Source: Ideonella aquatica (GTDB lineage Bacteria; Pseudomonadota; Gammaproteobacteria; Burkholderiales; Burkholderiaceae_C). Taken from it: a DNA stretch of 64,000 nucleotides. How positions within the stretch are numbered: position 1 is the first letter of the stretch; every line of letters begins with the position of its first letter. Positions 4,011 to 13,311 of the stretch are shown here, piece after piece. The DNA is taken from NCBI RefSeq assembly GCF_018069755.1, contig NZ_JAGQDE010000006.1:62001-126000 (forward strand). Reading direction: 5' to 3'. Position numbers and translations under genes: made by a program. The notes below the pieces were generated by a model, which was not told the origin of the DNA, ran no database searches, and saw only the letters and a list, made by a program, of their open reading frames with translations.

Positions 4011-4106
4011 GATTGAGCTCCTGTTTCTGCAGACGCCACCCTGTGTGGCACCATGCGGGAACAACGCAGGCCGACCGCGCCAGGCACACCTCGAGTTTGC
4101 AAAGAA

Positions 4107-5600
4107 ATGTTCACCACCCTCACCGCCGCCCCCGTCACGCCGACTTCGCGCGCCACCACGCAGGAGCGCCTGGCCGTTGCCAGCAGCCTGCTGCTGGAGC
4201 CGCATGCCCTGGACGAGATCCACCTGGCGCGGGCGCTGTCCGTGATCGGCGAGCACCGCGTCGATGACGCCGACCTGTACTTCCAGTACACCCGCCACGA
4301 GGGCTGGAGCCTGGAGGAGGGCATCGTCAAGAGCGGCAGCTTCTCGATCGACCAGGGTGTGGGTGTGCGCGCGGTGGCGGGCGAGAAGACCGCCTTCGCC
4401 TATTCGGATGAGCTGTCCGAGGCCGCGCTGCTCGATGCCGCACGCACCGTGCGCACCATCGCCGCCGCGGGCCAGAGCCGGCGCGTCAAGGTGGGGGCGC
4501 CCAAGCTGGCGCCCAGCCGCCTGCTGTATGCGCCGCTGGACCCGATCGCCACGCTCGACAGCACGCAGAAGGTGGCGCTGCTGGAAAAGGTCGAGCGCAT
4601 GGCCCGCTCCAAGGACCCGCGCATCGTGCAGGTGATGGCCGGCCTGGCCGCCGAGTACGACGTGGTGATGGTGGCGCGCGCCGATGGCACCCGCGCTGCC
4701 GATGTGCGGCCGCTGGTGCGCCTGTCGGTGACCGTGATCGCCGAGCAGGGCGAGCGGCGCGAGGTGGGCACCGGTGGCGGCGGCGGCCGCTTCGGCCTGG
4801 GCTACTTCCAGGACAGCCACCTGACCGAGTATGTCGACCAGGCCGTGAATGCGGCGCTGACCAACCTCGAATCGCGCCCGGTGCCGGCCGGCGAGATGAC
4901 GGTGGTGCTGGGCTCGGGCTGGCCCGGCGTGATGCTGCACGAGGCGGTGGGCCACGGCCTGGAGGGCGACTTCAACCGCAAGGGCTCATCCACCTTCAGC
5001 GGCCGCATCGGCCAGCGCGTGGCGGCCAAGGGCGTGACCGTGCTCGATGACGGCACGCTGGCCGACCGCCGCGGCTCGCTCAACATCGACGACGAAGGCC
5101 ATGCCACGCAGCGCAATGTGCTGATCGAGGACGGCATCCTGCGCGGCTACATCCAGGACAGCATGAACGCCCGCCTGATGGGCGTGAAGCCCACCGGCAA
5201 CGGCCGCCGCGAAAGCTACGCCCATGTGCCCATGCCGCGCATGACCAACACCTACATGCTGGCCGGCCACACGCCGCGCGAGGAGATCGTCGCCAGCATC
5301 AAGCGCGGCCTGTACGCCACCAATTTCGGTGGCGGCCAGGTCGACATCACCAGTGGCAAGTTCGTCTTCTCGGCGTCCGAGGCCTACTGGGTCGAGAACG
5401 GCCGCATCCAGTACCCGGTCAAGGGCGCCACGCTGATCGGCAACGGCCCCGACGCGATGAAGCGCGTCAGCATGATCGGCAACGACCTGGCGCTGGACTC
5501 GGGTGTGGGCACCTGCGGCAAGGAGGGCCAGAGCGTGCCGGTGGGCGTGGGCCAGCCGACGCTGCGCATTGACGGGCTGACCGTCGGTGGCACGGCCTGA
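4107..5600 (+). CDS. tldD: metalloprotease TldD
   Basis: 497 residues with ATG at 4107. TldD forms the TldD/TldE metalloprotease that processes unfolded peptides such as microcin B17 precursors and CcdA. The zinc-protease signature HEAVGHGLEGD is intact at about residues 278-288, giving the HExxxH metal site. The length matches E. coli TldD (481). The N-terminus aligns with 'L...LDEIHLARALSVIG...DDADLYFQYTR'. In relatives, tldD usually directly follows yhdP and a nitrilase gene; here those two lie about 46 kb away (46800-51697). No tldE (pmbA) is in the window. Confidence 0.95.
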   Translation: MFTTLTAAPVTPTSRATTQERLAVASSLLLEPHALDEIHLARALSVIGEHRVDDADLYFQYTRHEGWSLEEGIVKSGSFSIDQGVGVRAVAGEKTAFAYSDELSEAALLDAARTVRTIAAAGQSRRVKVGAPKLAPSRLLYAPLDPIATLDSTQKVALLEKVERMARSKDPRIVQVMAGLAAEYDVVMVARADGTRAADVRPLVRLSVTVIAEQGERREVGTGGGGGRFGLGYFQDSHLTEYVDQAVNAALTNLESRPVPAGEMTVVLGSGWPGVMLHEAVGHGLEGDFNRKGSSTFSGRIGQRVAAKGVTVLDDGTLADRRGSLNIDDEGHATQRNVLIEDGILRGYIQDSMNARLMGVKPTGNGRRESYAHVPMPRMTNTYMLAGHTPREEIVASIKRGLYATNFGGGQVDITSGKFVFSASEAYWVENGRIQYPVKGATLIGNGPDAMKRVSMIGNDLALDSGVGTCGKEGQSVPVGVGQPTLRIDGLTVGGTA

Positions 5601-5635
5601 TCCCTTCACCATTGTCTGTCCCCGCTGGAGCCGCC

Positions 5636-6730
5636 ATGTGGTCCCCTTTCGGCAAGAACAAGCCTGGCGCCAAACCGGTGGTCGCCTCCGGTGTCGGGCC
5701 GGCGCCCGCCACCGACGCACCGCTGGCCATCGGCCTGCCGCAGGCCAGCGACGCAGTGAACAAGGCCATGGCTGGCGGCTGCCAGCTCGACCTGACGGCG
5801 CGCGTGTCGCCGCTGGTGCGGGTGAACCACCAGATGCGCGGCAGCAAGCTGTCTGCCCGCTACGGTGAGTTCCTCCAGAACAGCAAGCCGGCCCAGATGC
5901 AGGTGGTGGAACAGCTGGTGCCGCTGCTGACCGTGCCGCGCCGGCCCTCGGCCGCCGAGCGCTGGGCCGACGAACACGGCCACGCCGAGACCGCCCGCGC
6001 ACTGCTGAAGGAGGTGCCGCCCAACGAATGGGGCTACTTCATGCCGCTGGCCCCCGGCCTGGGCACGCTGGGTGCGCTGGGCAGCCTGTCGGTGCCGCAG
6101 GCCACCTCGCGCTGGCGCAGCCTGTACCGCCTGAACTTCATCATGGACGGCGTCAGCCAACTGGTGGGCGGCCGGCTCGATGGCCTGTCGCTGCTGGACA
6201 TTGCCTGCAACTGGGGCGCCTTCGCGATCGAGGCGGCGCTGCGCGGCGCACAGGAGGTGGATGGCTTCGACATCCGCACCCAGAACATCGAGCGTGCGCG
6301 GCGGCTTTCCGGTTATTTCGGCACCGAGGCGCGCACGCGCTTCTCGGTGGCCGATGTCTACGCGTTCCAGCCGCAGCGCAGCTACGACATCGTGCTGAAC
6401 CTGGGCCTGATGTACCACATCACCAAGCCCTACGAGCTGGTGCGCGCCACGCATGCACTGTGCAATCACATGGCGGTGTTCGACACCGTGGTCCACCGCG
6501 AGCCCTTCTCGGGCTTCATCCTGGGCACCGGCGAGCACGCGCCTGAGCATGCCGCCACCGCCACCGGCTGCGAGCTGCACCCCACCTACCGCGCGCTGAT
6601 CGAGCTGGCCTACCTGGCCGGCTTCAAGGAAGTCATCGAGCTCAAGGGCGAGCCCGACCCGGCCTGGGCCGGCTTCAACACCGACCCCTACGGCGTCGGC
6701 CAGCGGCGCTGCATCGTCGCCTTCAAGTAA
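5636..6730 (+). CDS. class I SAM-dependent methyltransferase, CmoB/DUF1698-like
   Basis: 364 residues from ATG 5636, which has GGAG 5 bases upstream; a TTG 24 bases earlier is less likely. The Rossmann SAM site is at LLDIACNWGAFAIEAA (about residues 185-200), followed by GFDIRTQNIERARR and the acidic/hydrophobic strand YDIVLNLGLMYHI, a layout shared with CmoB-type tRNA-wobble-uridine modification enzymes and DUF1698 proteins. The glycine loop reads D-I-A-C-N-W-G rather than the common DxGxGxG. The substrate is unknown; the CmoB resemblance is only at fold level. It follows tldD by 35 bases and may be co-transcribed. Confidence 0.75.
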   Translation: MWSPFGKNKPGAKPVVASGVGPAPATDAPLAIGLPQASDAVNKAMAGGCQLDLTARVSPLVRVNHQMRGSKLSARYGEFLQNSKPAQMQVVEQLVPLLTVPRRPSAAERWADEHGHAETARALLKEVPPNEWGYFMPLAPGLGTLGALGSLSVPQATSRWRSLYRLNFIMDGVSQLVGGRLDGLSLLDIACNWGAFAIEAALRGAQEVDGFDIRTQNIERARRLSGYFGTEARTRFSVADVYAFQPQRSYDIVLNLGLMYHITKPYELVRATHALCNHMAVFDTVVHREPFSGFILGTGEHAPEHAATATGCELHPTYRALIELAYLAGFKEVIELKGEPDPAWAGFNTDPYGVGQRRCIVAFK

Positions 6731-6778
6731 AACGGTGTCGAGGCCCAACGCGCTGCGCTGCAGCGCGGCGGCCGATGA

Positions 6779-6787
6779 TGCTAGACT
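6779..6787 (+). promoter_or_regulatory. extended -10 promoter element for the DAHP synthase transcript
   Basis: TGCTAGACT at 6779-6787 is an extended -10 (TG-N-TAGACT). No convincing -35 hexamer is seen 17 bases upstream. A start 6-7 bases downstream would fall on the A or the base before the ATG (6794) of the leader peptide, implying a leaderless leader-peptide mRNA. Confidence 0.55.
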
Positions 6788-6793
6788 TCAGCC

Positions 6794-6877
6794 ATGCGTT
6801 GCGCACCGGCCTACTTTTTTGCCTACTTTTGGTTCTCGCCCCGATCGGCGGCTGGAGAGGCAATCGCGCGCAACTGA
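6794..6877 (+). CDS. aromatic-rich leader peptide of the DAHP synthase attenuator
   Basis: A 27-codon frame, ATG 6794 to TGA 6875, begins M-R-C-A-P-A and continues YFFAYFWF at codons 7-14 (6812-6835): two Tyr, four Phe, one Trp and one Ala, then a further Phe directly after Trp is included in that count. Such a concentration of the three end-product amino acids of the shikimate pathway is the signature of a ribosome-mediated attenuation leader. It is followed 20 bases after its stop by an intrinsic terminator (6898-6928) and then by the DAHP synthase gene. No strong ribosome-binding site precedes it; the predicted transcription start coincides with the ATG, so it may be translated leaderless. 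Stalling at these codons when charged Tyr/Phe/Trp-tRNA is scarce would favour read-through. The peptide itself is probably non-functional beyond regulation. Confidence 0.8.
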   Translation: MRCAPAYFFAYFWFSPRSAAGEAIARN

Positions 6878-6928
6878 CACCAAGCGAACACCCCCAGAAA
6901 ACCGCCGGACCCACCGGCGGTTTTTTTT
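6837..6928 (+). terminator. attenuator: anti-terminator region and intrinsic terminator
   Basis: The terminator stem is 6898-6908 paired with 6914-6924 (AAAACCGCCGG / CCGGCGGTTTT) with a 5-base loop and a T8 run at 6921-6928. Its 5' arm (CCGCCG, 6902-6907) is also perfectly complementary to CGGCGG at 6846-6851, making a competing anti-terminator. CGGCGG in turn can pair with CGCC at 6837-6840 (pre-emptor 1:2 hairpin). Region 1 lies immediately after the aromatic codons of the leader peptide, the geometry of classical trp/phe attenuators. The hairpins were folded by eye. Confidence 0.8.
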
Positions 6929-6968
6929 CGCCGGTCGACGCGAGGCACCCACCCAGGAGAACCCCCCG

Positions 6969-8067
<1,099 letters not shown>

Positions 8068-8087
<20 letters not shown>

Positions 8088-10701
8088 GCGCCTGGGCCTC
8101 GCGGAACCAGCGCTGCAAGGCGCCGGGGATTTGGCCATCGGGGTGCAGCGCGGTCCACAGTTGCAGGGCCTGGCGGCCGCGCTGCCGCGCCTCGTCGCGG
8201 CGCCCCAGCGCGGCCAAGGCCTGACCCTCGGTGCCCAGCGCCTGCGCCAGCTGCCATCCCCGGGCCGCATTGCGGGTGACGTCGTCGCCCTGCATCATCG
8301 CCACGACCTGCGCGGCGCGCCGCGCGGCCTCGGGCGGATCCTTCGACAGGCGCAGCCGGGCCGACCAGAGCAACGCATCGGCCCACCAGCGCTGCACATA
8401 GAAGTCGCTGCCTTTCGCGGCGCGCAGCGCCAGCGCAGCCACCGCGGCATCCACCCGCCGCAGCGCCTGGGCCGTCTGCCCCGCATCCACCAAGAGGCGG
8501 CCCTGCACCAGTCCCAGCAGCACGCGGTCGCGTTGAAGCACCTCATTGCCCGGGTCGGCGGCGGACAGCGCCTGCATCGTGGCCTCGGCCTCGTCCAGCC
8601 GGACGCGGCCCTCGGCATTGCGCCCGGCCTGGTTCAATGCCACGCTGTGAACCACGCGGGCCATGGCCGTTTGATGGCGGTAGTGGGCACTCTGGGGGAC
8701 ACGCCGCGCCGCCTCGTCACGCAGTTGCACCGCCTGCGTGGTGTGGCTCAGGGCCAACGCGCTGTCGCCACGCAGCACCGCCACGCTGCCCAGGCCGTGG
8801 TGGGCCCAGGCGGTCTGGTGCACCCACTCGACTTCACCCGGCTCGCGGGCGCGCATGCGCTCGAAGATGGCCAGCGCCTGCTGCCACAGTTGCAGCGCCT
8901 CCTCCGTGCGCCCCAGGTTGGACGCGGCCACGCTGCCGCCGGTGAGCACCGCGCGTCGGCCCAGCAGCGTGGCCTGGCGCGACAGGGTCTGCAGGTCGTC
9001 GGGCTGCTGCGCGACGATGCGCTCGACCAGGCGGCTGGCCTCGGCCAGCGCCTCGTTCGCCGGGATCAACCGACCCTGGCGCAGCAACAGGTCGCTGTGC
9101 AGCAGCCGCAGGTCGACCGCCTTGTCCAGCGCCGGCACATCGGCCTGCGGCAGGTACAGCGGCAGCAGCGCCAGCGCCTTCTCGGCGCTGCGCAGCGCAT
9201 CGTCGGGCCGCTCCTGGCCGGGCGAGAAGGATTCGCCCTGCAGCACCGCCAGGCGGAACCAGGCCTCGGCCAGCTCGCGGGCCAGCCCGGCGTCATCGGC
9301 CACGTCGTGCGCCAGCGCGTCGAGGTAGCCGGCGGCGTCCTGCAGCAGCGCATCGCGCACCGCAGTGGCCCCGGGCAGGTGGGCGATCTGGTCGTGGTAC
9401 TTGAAGACCATCTGGTTGGCCAGCTGGCGCACCTGGGCGAAGCGGGCCTCGGCGCGTTGGCGTTGACGATCGGCCTCGTGGGCCTGCCAGGTGGCGACGC
9501 CGACCCCGGCCACCAGCGATGACAAGGCCAGCGCCGCCGCCGCACTGGCCGCCCGGTGGCGCAGCACGAAGCGGCTGAGCAGGTAGCCCGCGCTGGGCGC
9601 GCGTGCGCTGACCGGCAGCCCCGCCAGGTGCGCCCGCACATCCGCCGCGAACGCGTCCACGCTGGGGTAGCGCGCCGCCGGGGCCTTGTCCAGGGCCTTG
9701 AGCAGGATGTTATCCAGGTCGCCCTTCAGACGCTTGCGCGTGACCATCCACTGCGGGTCGGCCACCAGCCCGGGGCTCAGCGCACTGGGCCGCGTGGGCT
9801 CTTCCTCCAGCACACTGCGGGCGGCTTCCTGCGGCGTCGTCGCGTTGCGGCCGTAGGGCCGCAGGCCGGTGAGCATCACGTACAGCAGCACGCCCAGGCT
9901 GTAGATGTCGGTCAGCGTGCCCACCGGCTCGCCCCTGACCTGCTCGGGGCTGGCGTAGTTGGGCGTGTAGGGCCGCGGGCCGGCGCCGGTGTGCTCGCCT
10001 TCGGCCGGGTCCAGCGCCTTGGCGATGCCGAAGTCCAGCAGCTTGACCTGGCTGTCCTCGGTGACCAGCACGTTGCTGGGCTTGAGGTCGCGGTGCACCA
10101 GCAGCTGGCGGTGCGCAAAGGCCACCGCGTCGGCCAGCTGCAGGAACAGCCCCAGCCGCGCTTCCAGTGCCAGGCCTTCGCAGGCCTGGTCGATCGGGCG
10201 GCCCAGCACCCGCTCCATCACGAAGTACGGCAGGCCCGCCGCGGTGCGCCCGGCGTCCAGCAGGTGGGCGATGTGCGGGTGGTTCAGCCGCGCCAGCGCG
10301 CGCTGCTCCAGCGCAAAGCGCGCCAGCACCGCCGCCGAGTCCATGCCGCGCTTGAGCACCTTGACCGCGGCCTCGCCGTCCCAGGCGCCGTCGGCGCGGC
10401 GCGCCAGCATCACCTCGGCCATGCCGCCCGCACCCAGCGGGCCGACGATCTCCCAGGCGCCCAGGCGCTCGCCGGGGGGCAGCAGCGGCCCCGGCTCATC
10501 CGCCAGCGGTGGCTCCAGGAAGCTGTCGGTCGTCGCGTCCTGCAGCACATGCTCATGCGCCAGCAGGCTCAGCACCTCGTCCTGCACCGCCGGGTCGGCG
10601 CCGCTGGCCCGCACGAAGGCCTCGCGCGCCGCCCACGGCTGCTCCAGCGCTGCCTCGAACAGCGCCTTGACCTGTGGCCAGTGGGTGTCGCCGGCGGCCA
10701 T
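8068..10701 (-). CDS. membrane Ser/Thr protein kinase with C-terminal TPR-like domain (copy 2)
   Basis: An 877-residue Hanks-type kinase. An N-terminal segment HWPQVKALFEAALEQ and a linker are followed by the kinase domain (about residues 83-350): GPLGAGGMAEV loop, AAVKVLKRG lysine, HRDLKPSNV catalytic loop, DFG, SPEQ and a DIYSLGVLLYVMLTG helix, all intact. One transmembrane helix follows at about 385-405. The C-terminal half (about 470 residues) is Ala/Leu-rich helical repeat, probably TPR, on the other side of the membrane. It lies 6 bases after the sister kinase and overlaps the DAHP synthase end by 20 bases. Its first ~390 residues nearly match the sister; the sensor halves have diverged. 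Substrates are unknown; the divergent sigma factor is a candidate by association. Confidence 0.9.
9528..10685 (-). repeat. tandem near-identical repeat, kinase half, copy 2
   Basis: About 1.16 kb covering the kinase domain and membrane helix of the 8068-10701 gene is almost identical at base level to 12141-13298, offset by about 2.6 kb in the same orientation. Long stretches (for example around 10340-10600) show no differences by eye. Similarity drops abruptly just past the transmembrane segment. Boundaries are approximate. Confidence 0.85.
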
Positions 10702-10707
10702 GGCAGG

Positions 10708-13311
10708 CTACAGGCCGATCGGCTCGCCGCGCGCCAGCGCATCGCGGCGGCGCAGGTGCTCGCCGTTGAGCGCCCGCAGCGCGTCGGCCGCCTGGTAATG
10801 CTGCAGCGCGCGCTGGCGCCAGGCTGGGGCGGCGGCGGGCTCGGCCGCGGCCATCACCAGCGCAGACTCGGCCAGGTTGAGCAGCGCATCACCGCCCTTG
10901 GACTCGCGCGACAGCGGCTCCAGGATGACCTGGCTCTGGCGCAGCTGCGTCAGGGCCTCGTCGCGCCGTTGCAGCCCCAGCAGCGCGGCCGCGCGGTAAA
11001 TGCCCAGCCAGGCCCACAGGCGCTCGGGGTGCGGCCCGGGCTTGGCCGTGCGCTGGCGCTGCCAGTAGGCCAGCGCGCTGTCGAGCACCGGCAGCGCGTC
11101 AGCCGAGCGGCCGACCAGCGCCAGCGCCCGCCCATGGTGCTGGGCCACGCGCGGCAGGTTCTCGGCCCACTTGCTCTGCGGGCCGTTCTCGGCGGCCAGG
11201 CGCTGCACCGTGTCCCAGGCCGCCTGGCTGGCCAGCACGGCACGCGCGGGCTGGTCGGCACGCATCAGGATCACCGCGGCATTGGTGGCCTCGGTGACCA
11301 GCTCGTCGCGCCGGCCGGTGTGGAAGGGCTCGGCCTGCACCGCGCGCAGACGCTGCTGCCAGGCGGCTTCGGCATCAGCGCGCGAGGCGTCGAGCCGACC
11401 CAGGCGCGCATGGGTGATGGCCCGCGCCCCGAGCAGCGTGCCCAGCAGCGGCGCCAGGCTGGCGTCGCCGTCGCGCTCCAGGCGGCGCAGGGCCTGCTCG
11501 GCCTGGCCGTACAGCGCCAGCGCGTCCTCGGGGCGGTTCAGGCTGGCCACGGTCTGCTGGTCAAAGAACTGGGCCTCGACGATCTGCAGCGAGGCGCGCT
11601 GCACCTGCAGGTCGCGCTGCTCGGCCGGTGGCAGGCGCTGCAGCCGCTGGTCGATCAGCGCCATCGCCTCCTCCAGCGTCTTCAGGCCCTGCTCGGGCTG
11701 GCCGTCGGCGCGCTGCGCGCGGGCACGGATCTGCAGCGCCTGCGACAAGGCCAGGCTCAGCGCGGCGTCGTCCGGCCGCGCCGGCAGCACACGTCGGGCC
11801 AGCGTGATGGCGTGTTCGGCATGCTGGCGCGCCTCGCCCATCTTGCTGAGCGAGACGCCGCCGTCGTCGCCGCCCACCTGGGCCAGGCGGGCGTAGACGC
11901 CGGCCAGCAGGGCCAGCCACTCCGTGTCGTCGCCAGCCTCCTGCTCGACCTCGCTGAGCTGGCCCAGCAGGCCCTTGAGCAGGTTCTCCTTGACCACCAG
12001 GCCGCCGGGCAGATAAGTGACGGCATCGGCATAGCGCAGCACCACGTCGCGGCTCAGGCCGCGCAACTGCTCCAGCCGCTGTCCGGCGACATGAGCCTGC
12101 CAGCTGGCCACACCGGCGCCCACCACCAGGGACACCGCCGCCAGCGCCGCCGCCGCACTGGCCGCCCGGTGGCGCAGCACGAAGCGGCTGAGCAGGTAGC
12201 CCGCGCTGGGCGCGCGCGCGCTGACCGGCAGGCCCGTCAGGTGGGCCCGCACATCCGCCGAAAACGCGTCCACGCTGGGGTAGCGTGCCGCCGGGGCCTT
12301 GTCCAGGGCTTTCAGCAGGATGTTGTCCAGGTCGCCCTTCAGACGCTTGCGCGTGGCCATCCACTGCGGATCACTCACCAGCCCGGGGCTCAGCGCGCTG
12401 GGCCGCGTGGGTTCTTCCTCCAGCACGCTGCGGGCGGCTTCCTGCGGCGTCGTCGCGTGCCGGCCGTAGGGCCGCAGCCCGGTGAGCATCACGTACAGCA
12501 GCACGCCCAGGCTGTAGATGTCGGTCAGCGTGCCCACCGGCTCGCCGCGCACCTGCTCGGGGCTGGCGTAGTTGGGCGTGTAGGGCCGCGGGCCGGCGCC
12601 GGTGTGCTCGCCCTCGGCCGGGTCCAGCGCCTTGGCGATGCCAAAGTCCAGCAGCTTGACCTGGCCGTCCTCGGTGACCAGCACGTTGCTGGGCTTGAGG
12701 TCGCGGTGCACCAGCAGCTGCCGGTGCGCAAAGGCCACCGCGTCGGCCAGTTGCAGGAACAACGCCAGCCGCGCCTCCAGCGCCAGGCCCTCGCAGGCCT
12801 GGTCGATCGGGCGGCCGCGCACCAGCTCCATCACGAAGTACGGCAGGCCCGCCGCGGTGCGCCCGGCGTCCAGCAGGTGGGCGATGTGCGGGTGGTTCAG
12901 CCGCGCCAGCGCGCGCTGCTCCAGCGCAAAGCGCGCCAGCACCGCCGCCGAGTCCATGCCGCGCTTGAGCACCTTGACCGCGGCCTCGCCGTCCCAGGCG
13001 CCGTCGGCGCGGCGCGCCAGCATCACCTCGGCCATGCCGCCCGCACCCAGCGGGCCGACGATCTCCCAGGCGCCCAGGCGCTCGCCGGGGGGCAGCAGCG
13101 GCCCCGGCTCATCCGCCAGCGGTGGCTCCAGGAAGCTGTCGGTCGTCGCGTCCTGCAGCACATGCTCATGCGCCAGCAGGCTCAGCACCTCGTCCTGCAC
13201 CGCCGGGTCGACGCCGCTGGCCCGCACGAAGGCCTCGCGCGCCGCCCACGGCTGCTCCAGCGCTGCCTCGAACAGCGCCTTGACCTGCTGCCAATGTTCG
13301 CCCGCGTGCAC
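10708..13311 (-). CDS. membrane Ser/Thr protein kinase with C-terminal TPR-like domain (copy 1)
   Basis: 867 residues. Gly-rich loop at about 87-95, catalytic lysine about K113 (AAVKVLK), HRDLKPSN at 202-209 (Asp about 204), DFG at 222-224, SPEQ at 250-253, and a membrane helix at about 384-404. The remaining ~460 residues are helical repeats rich in Q, A and L, resembling TPR sensor domains of large bacterial receptor kinases. All catalytic residues are present, so it should be active. It is the upstream member of the kinase pair (6-base gap). About a dozen substitutions separate the two in the first 390 residues, but the C-terminal parts are clearly different, consistent with two receptors feeding one output. 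The sigma factor, lipoprotein and coupled small protein lie immediately upstream. Confidence 0.9.
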   Translation of the reverse strand: MHAGEHWQQVKALFEAALEQPWAAREAFVRASGVDPAVQDEVLSLLAHEHVLQDATTDSFLEPPLADEPGPLLPPGERLGAWEIVGPLGAGGMAEVMLARRADGAWDGEAAVKVLKRGMDSAAVLARFALEQRALARLNHPHIAHLLDAGRTAAGLPYFVMELVRGRPIDQACEGLALEARLALFLQLADAVAFAHRQLLVHRDLKPSNVLVTEDGQVKLLDFGIAKALDPAEGEHTGAGPRPYTPNYASPEQVRGEPVGTLTDIYSLGVLLYVMLTGLRPYGRHATTPQEAARSVLEEEPTRPSALSPGLVSDPQWMATRKRLKGDLDNILLKALDKAPAARYPSVDAFSADVRAHLTGLPVSARAPSAGYLLSRFVLRHRAASAAAALAAVSLVVGAGVASWQAHVAGQRLEQLRGLSRDVVLRYADAVTYLPGGLVVKENLLKGLLGQLSEVEQEAGDDTEWLALLAGVYARLAQVGGDDGGVSLSKMGEARQHAEHAITLARRVLPARPDDAALSLALSQALQIRARAQRADGQPEQGLKTLEEAMALIDQRLQRLPPAEQRDLQVQRASLQIVEAQFFDQQTVASLNRPEDALALYGQAEQALRRLERDGDASLAPLLGTLLGARAITHARLGRLDASRADAEAAWQQRLRAVQAEPFHTGRRDELVTEATNAAVILMRADQPARAVLASQAAWDTVQRLAAENGPQSKWAENLPRVAQHHGRALALVGRSADALPVLDSALAYWQRQRTAKPGPHPERLWAWLGIYRAAALLGLQRRDEALTQLRQSQVILEPLSRESKGGDALLNLAESALVMAAAEPAAAPAWRQRALQHYQAADALRALNGEHLRRRDALARGEPIGL
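12141..13298 (-). repeat. tandem near-identical repeat, kinase half, copy 1
   Basis: Direct-repeat partner of 9528-10685; see that entry for the extent of identity. Because repeat and gene spacing are the same (about 2.6 kb), a tandem gene duplication followed by sensor divergence, or later gene conversion restricted to the kinase half, would explain it. Confidence 0.85.

Follow-up and report, generated by a model that had tools for sequence, protein, structure and literature searches.

A conserved aromatic leader peptide and intrinsic terminator upstream of a DAHP synthase gene of Ideonella aquatica: a likely transcription attenuator

The leader region of the DAHP synthase gene

The window analyzed here, a stretch of 64,000 nucleotides from Ideonella aquatica (contig NZ_JAGQDE010000006.1, positions 62,001 to 126,000), contains a gene for a 3-deoxy-7-phosphoheptulonate (DAHP) synthase of the aroFGH family, assigned by its matches to TIGR00034 (539 bits, cut-off 173.2) and PF00793 (322 bits). 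The gene is preceded by a short open reading frame dense in aromatic codons and by an intrinsic terminator. The elements of the region, in window coordinates, are the following.

6779-6787, + strand: extended −10 element TGCTAGACT, read from the sequence, 6 nt ahead of the leader ATG
6794-6877, + strand: leader peptide ORF, read from the sequence, 27 codons from the ATG at 6794 to a TGA that ends at 6877, product MRCAPAYFFAYFWFSPRSAAGEAIARN
6812-6835, + strand: presumed regulatory codons YFFAYFWF, codons 7 to 14 of the leader, read from the sequence
6824-6835, + strand: likely control codons YFWF, picked by their spacing
6836-6840, + strand: segment 1, 5′ arm of the predicted 1:2 (protector) hairpin, from the fold of 6833-6928 and from compensatory pair changes in a 72-sequence alignment
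6846-6855, + strand: segment 2, predicted antiterminator strand CGGCGGCTGG, within the leader ORF; its GGCGG copies the 3′ arm of the terminator
6894-6897, + strand: extension of segment 3, CCAG, antiterminator partner of 6852-6855 in the fold of 6833-6910
6902-6908, + strand: segment 3, terminator 5′ arm CCGCCGG, able to pair with segment 2 or with segment 4
6898-6928, + strand: intrinsic terminator, the 3:4 hairpin (6902-6920) plus eight T, with flanking A-T pairs
6955-6959, + strand: Shine-Dalgarno-like AGGAG for the DAHP synthase gene, read from the sequence
6969-8087, + strand: DAHP synthase gene, aroFGH family

Codons 7 to 14 of the leader are TAC TTT TTT GCC TAC TTT TGG TTC, seven of the eight being aromatic. 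The terminator is composed of AAAA (6898-6901), CCGCCGG (6902-6908), the loop ACCCA (6909-6913), CCGGCGG (6914-6920) and eight T (6921-6928). Both the 27-codon frame with its YFFAYFWF run and the terminator had been pointed out in the original prediction; they are read directly from the DNA, and the terminator also forms in folds of the leader region. No Shine-Dalgarno sequence is seen ahead of the leader ORF. A generic promoter and terminator scanner listed neither kind of element within 6600-7100; the program requires a −35 box to call a promoter and, in our reading, it may have missed the terminator because the stem absorbs A-T pairs, leaving too few T. An ORF of 65 amino acids in another frame (6775-6972), overlapping the leader, was dropped since its ATG, 19 nt ahead of the leader ATG, does not recur by eye in the upstream stretches of relatives. 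Upstream, a methyltransferase-like gene (5612-6730, same strand) lies between TldD (4053-5600) and the leader. Downstream, two long tandem frames (8068-10701 and 10708-13311) run on the − strand towards the DAHP synthase gene; the former is a serine/threonine kinase with TPR matches, and the N-terminal half of the latter closely resembles it by eye.

Folding of sub-stretches gave three alternative stems. In stem 1:2, residues 6836-6840 pair with 6847-6851; in stem 2:3, residues 6846-6851 pair with 6902-6907, lengthened by the pairing of 6852-6855 with 6894-6897; stem 3:4 is the terminator hairpin. The pairing of the terminator 5′ arm with 6846-6851, and of this strand with bases beside the aromatic codons, had been put forward before, and both were recovered in the sub-stretch folds; the 6852-6855/6894-6897 part of stem 2:3 is an addition to that scheme. 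When 6794-6928 was folded as a whole the terminator formed, the rest of the leader adopted a larger structure of its own and the short 1:2 hairpin was not formed. Folding thus sustains the terminator both in the whole region and in its parts, and the 1:2 hairpin in the parts only.

Conservation of the leader and its promoter in close relatives

As a set of orthologues we took the best 80 of at least 595 candidate stretches, picked by likeness of the DAHP synthase. One of them (L041) lies at a contig edge, where it is not assessable, and was left out of the count. An aromatic leader and a terminator are found at the same place in 71 of the remaining 79, as was to be expected of orthologues under the original prediction. 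The eight loci without leader are four of Polynucleobacter (L053, L056, L057 and L067), two of Cupriavidus (L062 and L068), L077 and L078. None of the eight has a comparable terminator, the weak hairpin of L078 having a score of 7.7 where the leader loci reach at least 11.8, and in these 79 loci leader and terminator are present together or absent together. In L053 and L056 a TldD-like frame ends just ahead of the DAHP synthase gene, where the switch may have been lost along with its own promoter; L030 and L038, also labelled Polynucleobacter, keep the leader.

The aromatic run is far above chance. A frame with at least six aromatics in nine codons occurs within the 450 nt upstream in 64 of 80 regions, which are the window and 79 loci; dinucleotide shuffling gave 2 of 1600. 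With a cut of four in nine the figure rises to 72 of 80, yet 12% of the shuffles also reach it, so that this cut is not evidence by itself. In the upstream stretches, examined up to 2 kb, a relative of the methyltransferase 5612-6730 is found in none of the 71 leader loci, and TldD is found on the same strand in 54. The absence of the methyltransferase from relatives indicates that the leader belongs with the DAHP synthase gene and not with that neighbour.

An extended −10 motif (TGnTAnnnT) is present upstream in 66 of the 72 close loci (the window and the 71 loci from the best 80 of at least 595). In 65 of them, the window included, it stands 6-8 nt before the leader ATG, a placement found in 2.2% of shuffles, and the start codon of the leader is ATG in 70 of 72. 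Such a spacing predicts a leaderless message, and the window transcript probably starts at or next to 6794. Among 97 more distant leaders the full extended −10 was found in 36, 30 of which have it at 6-8 nt before the ATG; several others have, by eye, a box resembling a −10 about 30-45 nt upstream instead. The leaderless transcript that had been predicted therefore agrees with the promoter spacing of the close relatives (65/72) and is not a general trait of the order (30/97 in distant leaders).

Comparative support for the alternative stems

The stems were compared in an alignment (A1) of 72 sequences, the 71 close loci and the window. The terminator stem is paired in 99.3% of the cells. For the 1:2 stem, with its structure taken from the fold of one member (L005), six pairs changed on both sides, in 55 cells (shuffles: 30.6), and the covariation score was 0.225, compared with 0.144 after shuffling and no more than 0.109 after sliding. 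The pair at columns 53-71 appears as CG in 22 sequences, GC in 22 and GU in 7, and that at columns 54-70 as UA in 21, GU in 11 and AU in 9; in 59 of 72 sequences columns 52 and 73 do not pair. The number of pairs (6 against 3.9; 42 of 500 shuffles) and of pair types (18 against 16.5; 134 of 500) were unexceptional, these being the two measures, out of five, that according to the tool are least inflated by relatedness. Scored crudely across 171 loci, the 1:2 hairpin had a flat z-score (mean −0.14). As judged from the alignment, the predicted 1:2 hairpin shows compensatory changes across relatives.

Stem 2:3 is paired in 81.5% of the cells of the same 72 sequences, against 80.4% shuffled and 18.7-58.4% slid, with a covariation score of 0.057 against 0.041 shuffled; some of the unpaired cells stem from a one-column shift of the window's own group, as read from the alignment. 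Pairs changed on both sides were two against 1.3 expected (192 of 500 shuffles), which is unexceptional. More widely, the leader holds a copy of GGCGG, the core of the terminator 3′ arm, in 151 of 169 loci with terminator; GGCGG is missing from the leader in 18 loci and CCGCC from the terminator arm in three. The pair between the base before GGCGG and the base after CCGCC forms in 109 of the 151, against 87.8 expected, and is broken in 42, but owing to the relatedness of the sequences and two duplicate loci these counts are not independent events. Leaders ahead of a CCGCCAG/CTGGCGG terminator tend to have CTGGCGG (11/11 in family f13, 7/8 in f11 and 4/5 in f32), and the commonest form in the close set is a leader CCGGCGG with a terminator CCGCCGG/CCGGCGG (30/71). 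The 2:3 duplex of a species' own strands has −20.6 kcal/mol, against −18.2 with strands of other families (100 loci); own strands pair better in 12 of 14 family labels, f23 and f40 being no better. The covariation of the putative antiterminator across relatives is modest. In simulations of a stalled ribosome the antiterminator formed in 115 of 171 loci, compared with 754 of 1710 controls (44%) in which segment 2 had been shuffled, a weak result; with the ribosome placed at the stop codon, the terminator persisted in all 171 loci. The layout of 1:2, 2:3 and 3:4 stems that had been recognized in the window is kept, with all three stems, across the orthologues.

Reach of the leader in the order and beyond

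A covariance model built from the leader-to-terminator stretch matched in at least 206 of 399 genomes of the order (E up to 0.01); among the matches listed, many cover the terminator only and others are full length. From these listed matches 109 loci were examined, 29 returned by the model search besides the window and 80 fetched by place, and they span 14 family labels. The DAHP synthase gene lies within the stretch in 104 of them. An ORF with at least four aromatics in nine codons was found in 101 of these 104 (at least five in 99, at least six in 79), L182, L188 and L190 falling below four. The five loci without DAHP synthase (L186 and L193-L196) are partial or weak matches to the model, with E values from 3e-8 to 4e-5. 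Since the loci were picked by likeness to the model, their leaders are no independent sample, and only the downstream gene and the promoter are independent. Two loci duplicate others (L099 and L104, of L045 and L073), and for L156 and L166 an ORF other than the leader was probably picked; without these four, 169 distinct leaders remain.

In a sample unselected for the leader, drawn from 45 genomes of the order, it precedes 15 of 61 DAHP synthase genes; within the order it is not a general feature. The sample comprised 60 scanned regions and the second aroFGH-type DAHP synthase gene of the window's genome (G000:C35, L086), which has no aromatic leader. At least five aromatics in nine codons occur in 17 of the 60 regions, two of which (L282 and L294) were rejected by eye. 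Among the 15, L227, L228, L229, L237 and L239 have the terminator and are the same places as L141, L164, L125, L114 and L136. In the five genomes of this sample with two copies of the gene and a leader (G000, G049, G022, G039 and G056) the leader stands at one copy only, that of the window in the case of Ideonella.

Outside the order, 80 of the 97 DAHP synthase places listed were examined. The leader with terminator was found in none of 79 regions, and G410, examined besides, has the leader. Seven of the 79 pass five aromatics in nine (L254, L263, L302, L324, L325, L332 and L350), and all were rejected as leader-terminator loci because none has a hairpin scoring above 6.5. G410 (L198) and G562 (L197) belong to one family outside the order, and in both a leader followed by the DAHP synthase gene was seen by eye on the reverse strand; a locus labelled Solimonas (L048) has the leader as well. 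In L302, L325 and L332, of the same class and outside the order, a Tyr/Phe-rich short ORF, such as ...SSFYYYFS or ...NKFYFYYYFSA, stands ahead of DAHP synthase without an intrinsic terminator; these ORFs are possibly independent leaders under another mode of control.

Amino acids to which the leader may respond

The 169 distinct leaders contain 756 Phe, 290 Tyr and 119 Trp codons. Trp occurs in 108 of them, 61 being without it, Tyr in 156 and all three amino acids in 103; in the 72 close leaders Trp occurs in 61 and the three together in 60. TTT makes up 195 of the 310 Phe codons in the close leaders and 132 of 610 in the DAHP synthase genes themselves; the gene of the window has nine TTC and no TTT. 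By eye, Phe, Tyr and Trp substitute for one another along the run, as sensing of codon demand predicts, and the length of the run varies. Counted downstream from the first base of the A-site codon, the ribosome covers about 14 nt. Stalled at Trp13 or Phe14, it would thus cover segment 1 and free segment 2, so that YFWF are likely the control codons. That one leader senses Phe, Tyr and Trp, as originally predicted, is plausible for the group of close relatives, whose codons fit it (60/72), and does not hold as a general rule (103/169).

A model for attenuation of DAHP synthase

The locus combines the elements of an attenuator: (i) a leader ORF with codons for the products of the pathway; (ii) an intrinsic terminator; (iii) a 2:3 antiterminator, and (iv) a 1:2 protector or pause hairpin. 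The leader-terminator unit is real, widely kept and most likely a ribosome-mediated attenuator, and we hold it very probable that the DAHP synthase gene, at the entry of the shikimate pathway, is controlled by ribosome-mediated transcription attenuation. In the model, transcription would begin at the leader ATG or beside it, and a ribosome would load on the 5′ end of the transcript. With an ample supply of charged Phe-, Tyr- and Trp-tRNA, this ribosome would reach the stop codon and cover segment 2 (6846-6855), leaving segments 3 and 4 to pair, and transcription would end at 6921-6928. If one of the three amino acids is short, the ribosome would stall in YFWF and cover segment 1 (6836-6840); segment 2 would then be free to pair with segment 3, the terminator would not form and the DAHP synthase gene would be transcribed. 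In the absence of translation, segment 2 would be held within the leader, by the 1:2 hairpin or by the larger leader fold, and the terminator would form.

The hairpin might alternatively be no more than the terminator of an upstream transcript, with an aromatic ORF arisen by chance and a promoter of the DAHP synthase gene located after 6928. The same-strand methyltransferase upstream in the window, the same-strand TldD in 54 of 71 relatives and the silence of the generic scanner ahead of the leader speak for such an arrangement. However, the scanner gave no promoter after 6928 either (within 6600-7100), the gene that directly precedes the leader in the window is missing in 71 of 71 relatives while the leader stays, and leader and terminator come or go together. 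The frequency of the aromatic ORF (64/80 against 2/1600 shuffles), the −10 element fixed 6-8 nt ahead of the ATG (65/72) and the compensatory changes in the 1:2 hairpin are equally at odds with it, and we consider an upstream terminator very improbable. A nascent peptide that arrests the ribosome upon binding an aromatic effector, instead of through uncharged tRNA, would account for the conserved aromatic run, and TnaC is described as stalled by free tryptophan (PMC8429421). Against a TnaC-like leader, Phe, Tyr and Trp exchange and the run varies in length by eye, and opening at high levels of aromatics would be the wrong direction for a biosynthetic gene; this alternative too seems highly unlikely.

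A narrower form of the attenuation model itself would have the leader answer to Phe alone, or to Phe and Tyr, the Trp codons being incidental. Phe far exceeds Tyr and Trp in the 169 distinct leaders (756, 290 and 119), 61 of them lack Trp, and the Phe-Tyr-Phe leader of Corynebacterium aroF is described as responding to Phe and not to Tyr (PMC11802643). On the other side, the Trp codon of the window adjoins segment 1 and Trp is kept in 61 of 72 close leaders, and we regard the narrower response as possible rather than probable. At the opposite end, the leaderless leader could work as a three-input OR gate, in which shortage of any of Phe, Tyr and Trp opens the entry enzyme; the gate would also read the state of free 70S ribosomes, because its initiation would be leaderless, and the terminated RNA and its peptide could act in trans like Sinorhizobium trpL. 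This wider role is speculative, and we rate it as rather unlikely.

If the attenuation model is true, many betaproteobacteria would have the committed step in making aromatic amino acids under a simple regulator. The natural set of leaders, with and without Trp codons or a 5′ UTR, would be a ready comparison that bears both on the sensing of three end products by one leader and on attenuation from a leaderless start.

Comparison with known systems

No family of Rfam 15 reaches its threshold at the leader region. The Phe_leader (RF01859), which shares the layout of leader peptide and terminator, gives a weak full-length match at the same place, scoring 29.7 bits where the gathering threshold is 55, and differs from the window leader, where the codons are a mixture of Phe, Tyr and Trp. 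The Trp_leader (RF00513, gathering threshold 41 bits) has no match at the leader region, and a plasmid search with this region matched nothing. The usual target of the Phe_leader is presumably pheA, and the gene name aroAIalpha_Y used below we take to denote a DAHP synthase. The main text of a survey of premature terminators (PMC2965389) contains no words beginning with aroG or DAHP. The original prediction pointed to no described leader of this design for a betaproteobacterial DAHP synthase, and likewise no case was found in the open-access literature searched.

The nearest counterpart by description is the aroR leader of Corynebacterium glutamicum, which controls the DAHP synthase gene aroF (Neshat et al. 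2014, as presented in PMC11802643 and PMC4046766) and is, like the leader proposed here, an aromatic-codon leader peptide ahead of a DAHP synthase gene, acting by ribosome-mediated attenuation. According to the review (PMC11802643), limitation of Phe induces it. It belongs to another phylum and its run is Phe-Tyr-Phe, and the two are likened by description only. The uORFC-13-1 motif of Acholeplasma aroF also has a terminator and a predicted upstream ORF containing one or more Phe codons before the DAHP synthase gene; it differs in having a ribosome-binding site and possible −35 and −10 elements, and its 24 representatives are from Acholeplasma and environmental sequences (PMC8632094). Putative attenuators of Vibrio aroAIalpha_Y-tyrA (Merino list, Table 7, PMC1173090) likewise stand before a class I DAHP synthase gene, although in a gammaproteobacterial operon, and are known here from the list entry alone. 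With regard to the start of the message, the transcript of Sinorhizobium meliloti trpL (rnTrpL) begins with the leader ATG, and thus this attenuator leader is leaderless, as is predicted here; it is a Trp leader ahead of trpE(G) in an alphaproteobacterium, and its RNA and peptide act in trans (PMC7298713). The mechanism of attenuation itself is classical. As far as we have searched, what is new is a betaproteobacterial family of DAHP synthase leaders with mixed aromatic codons and, in the branch of the window, a probably leaderless start.
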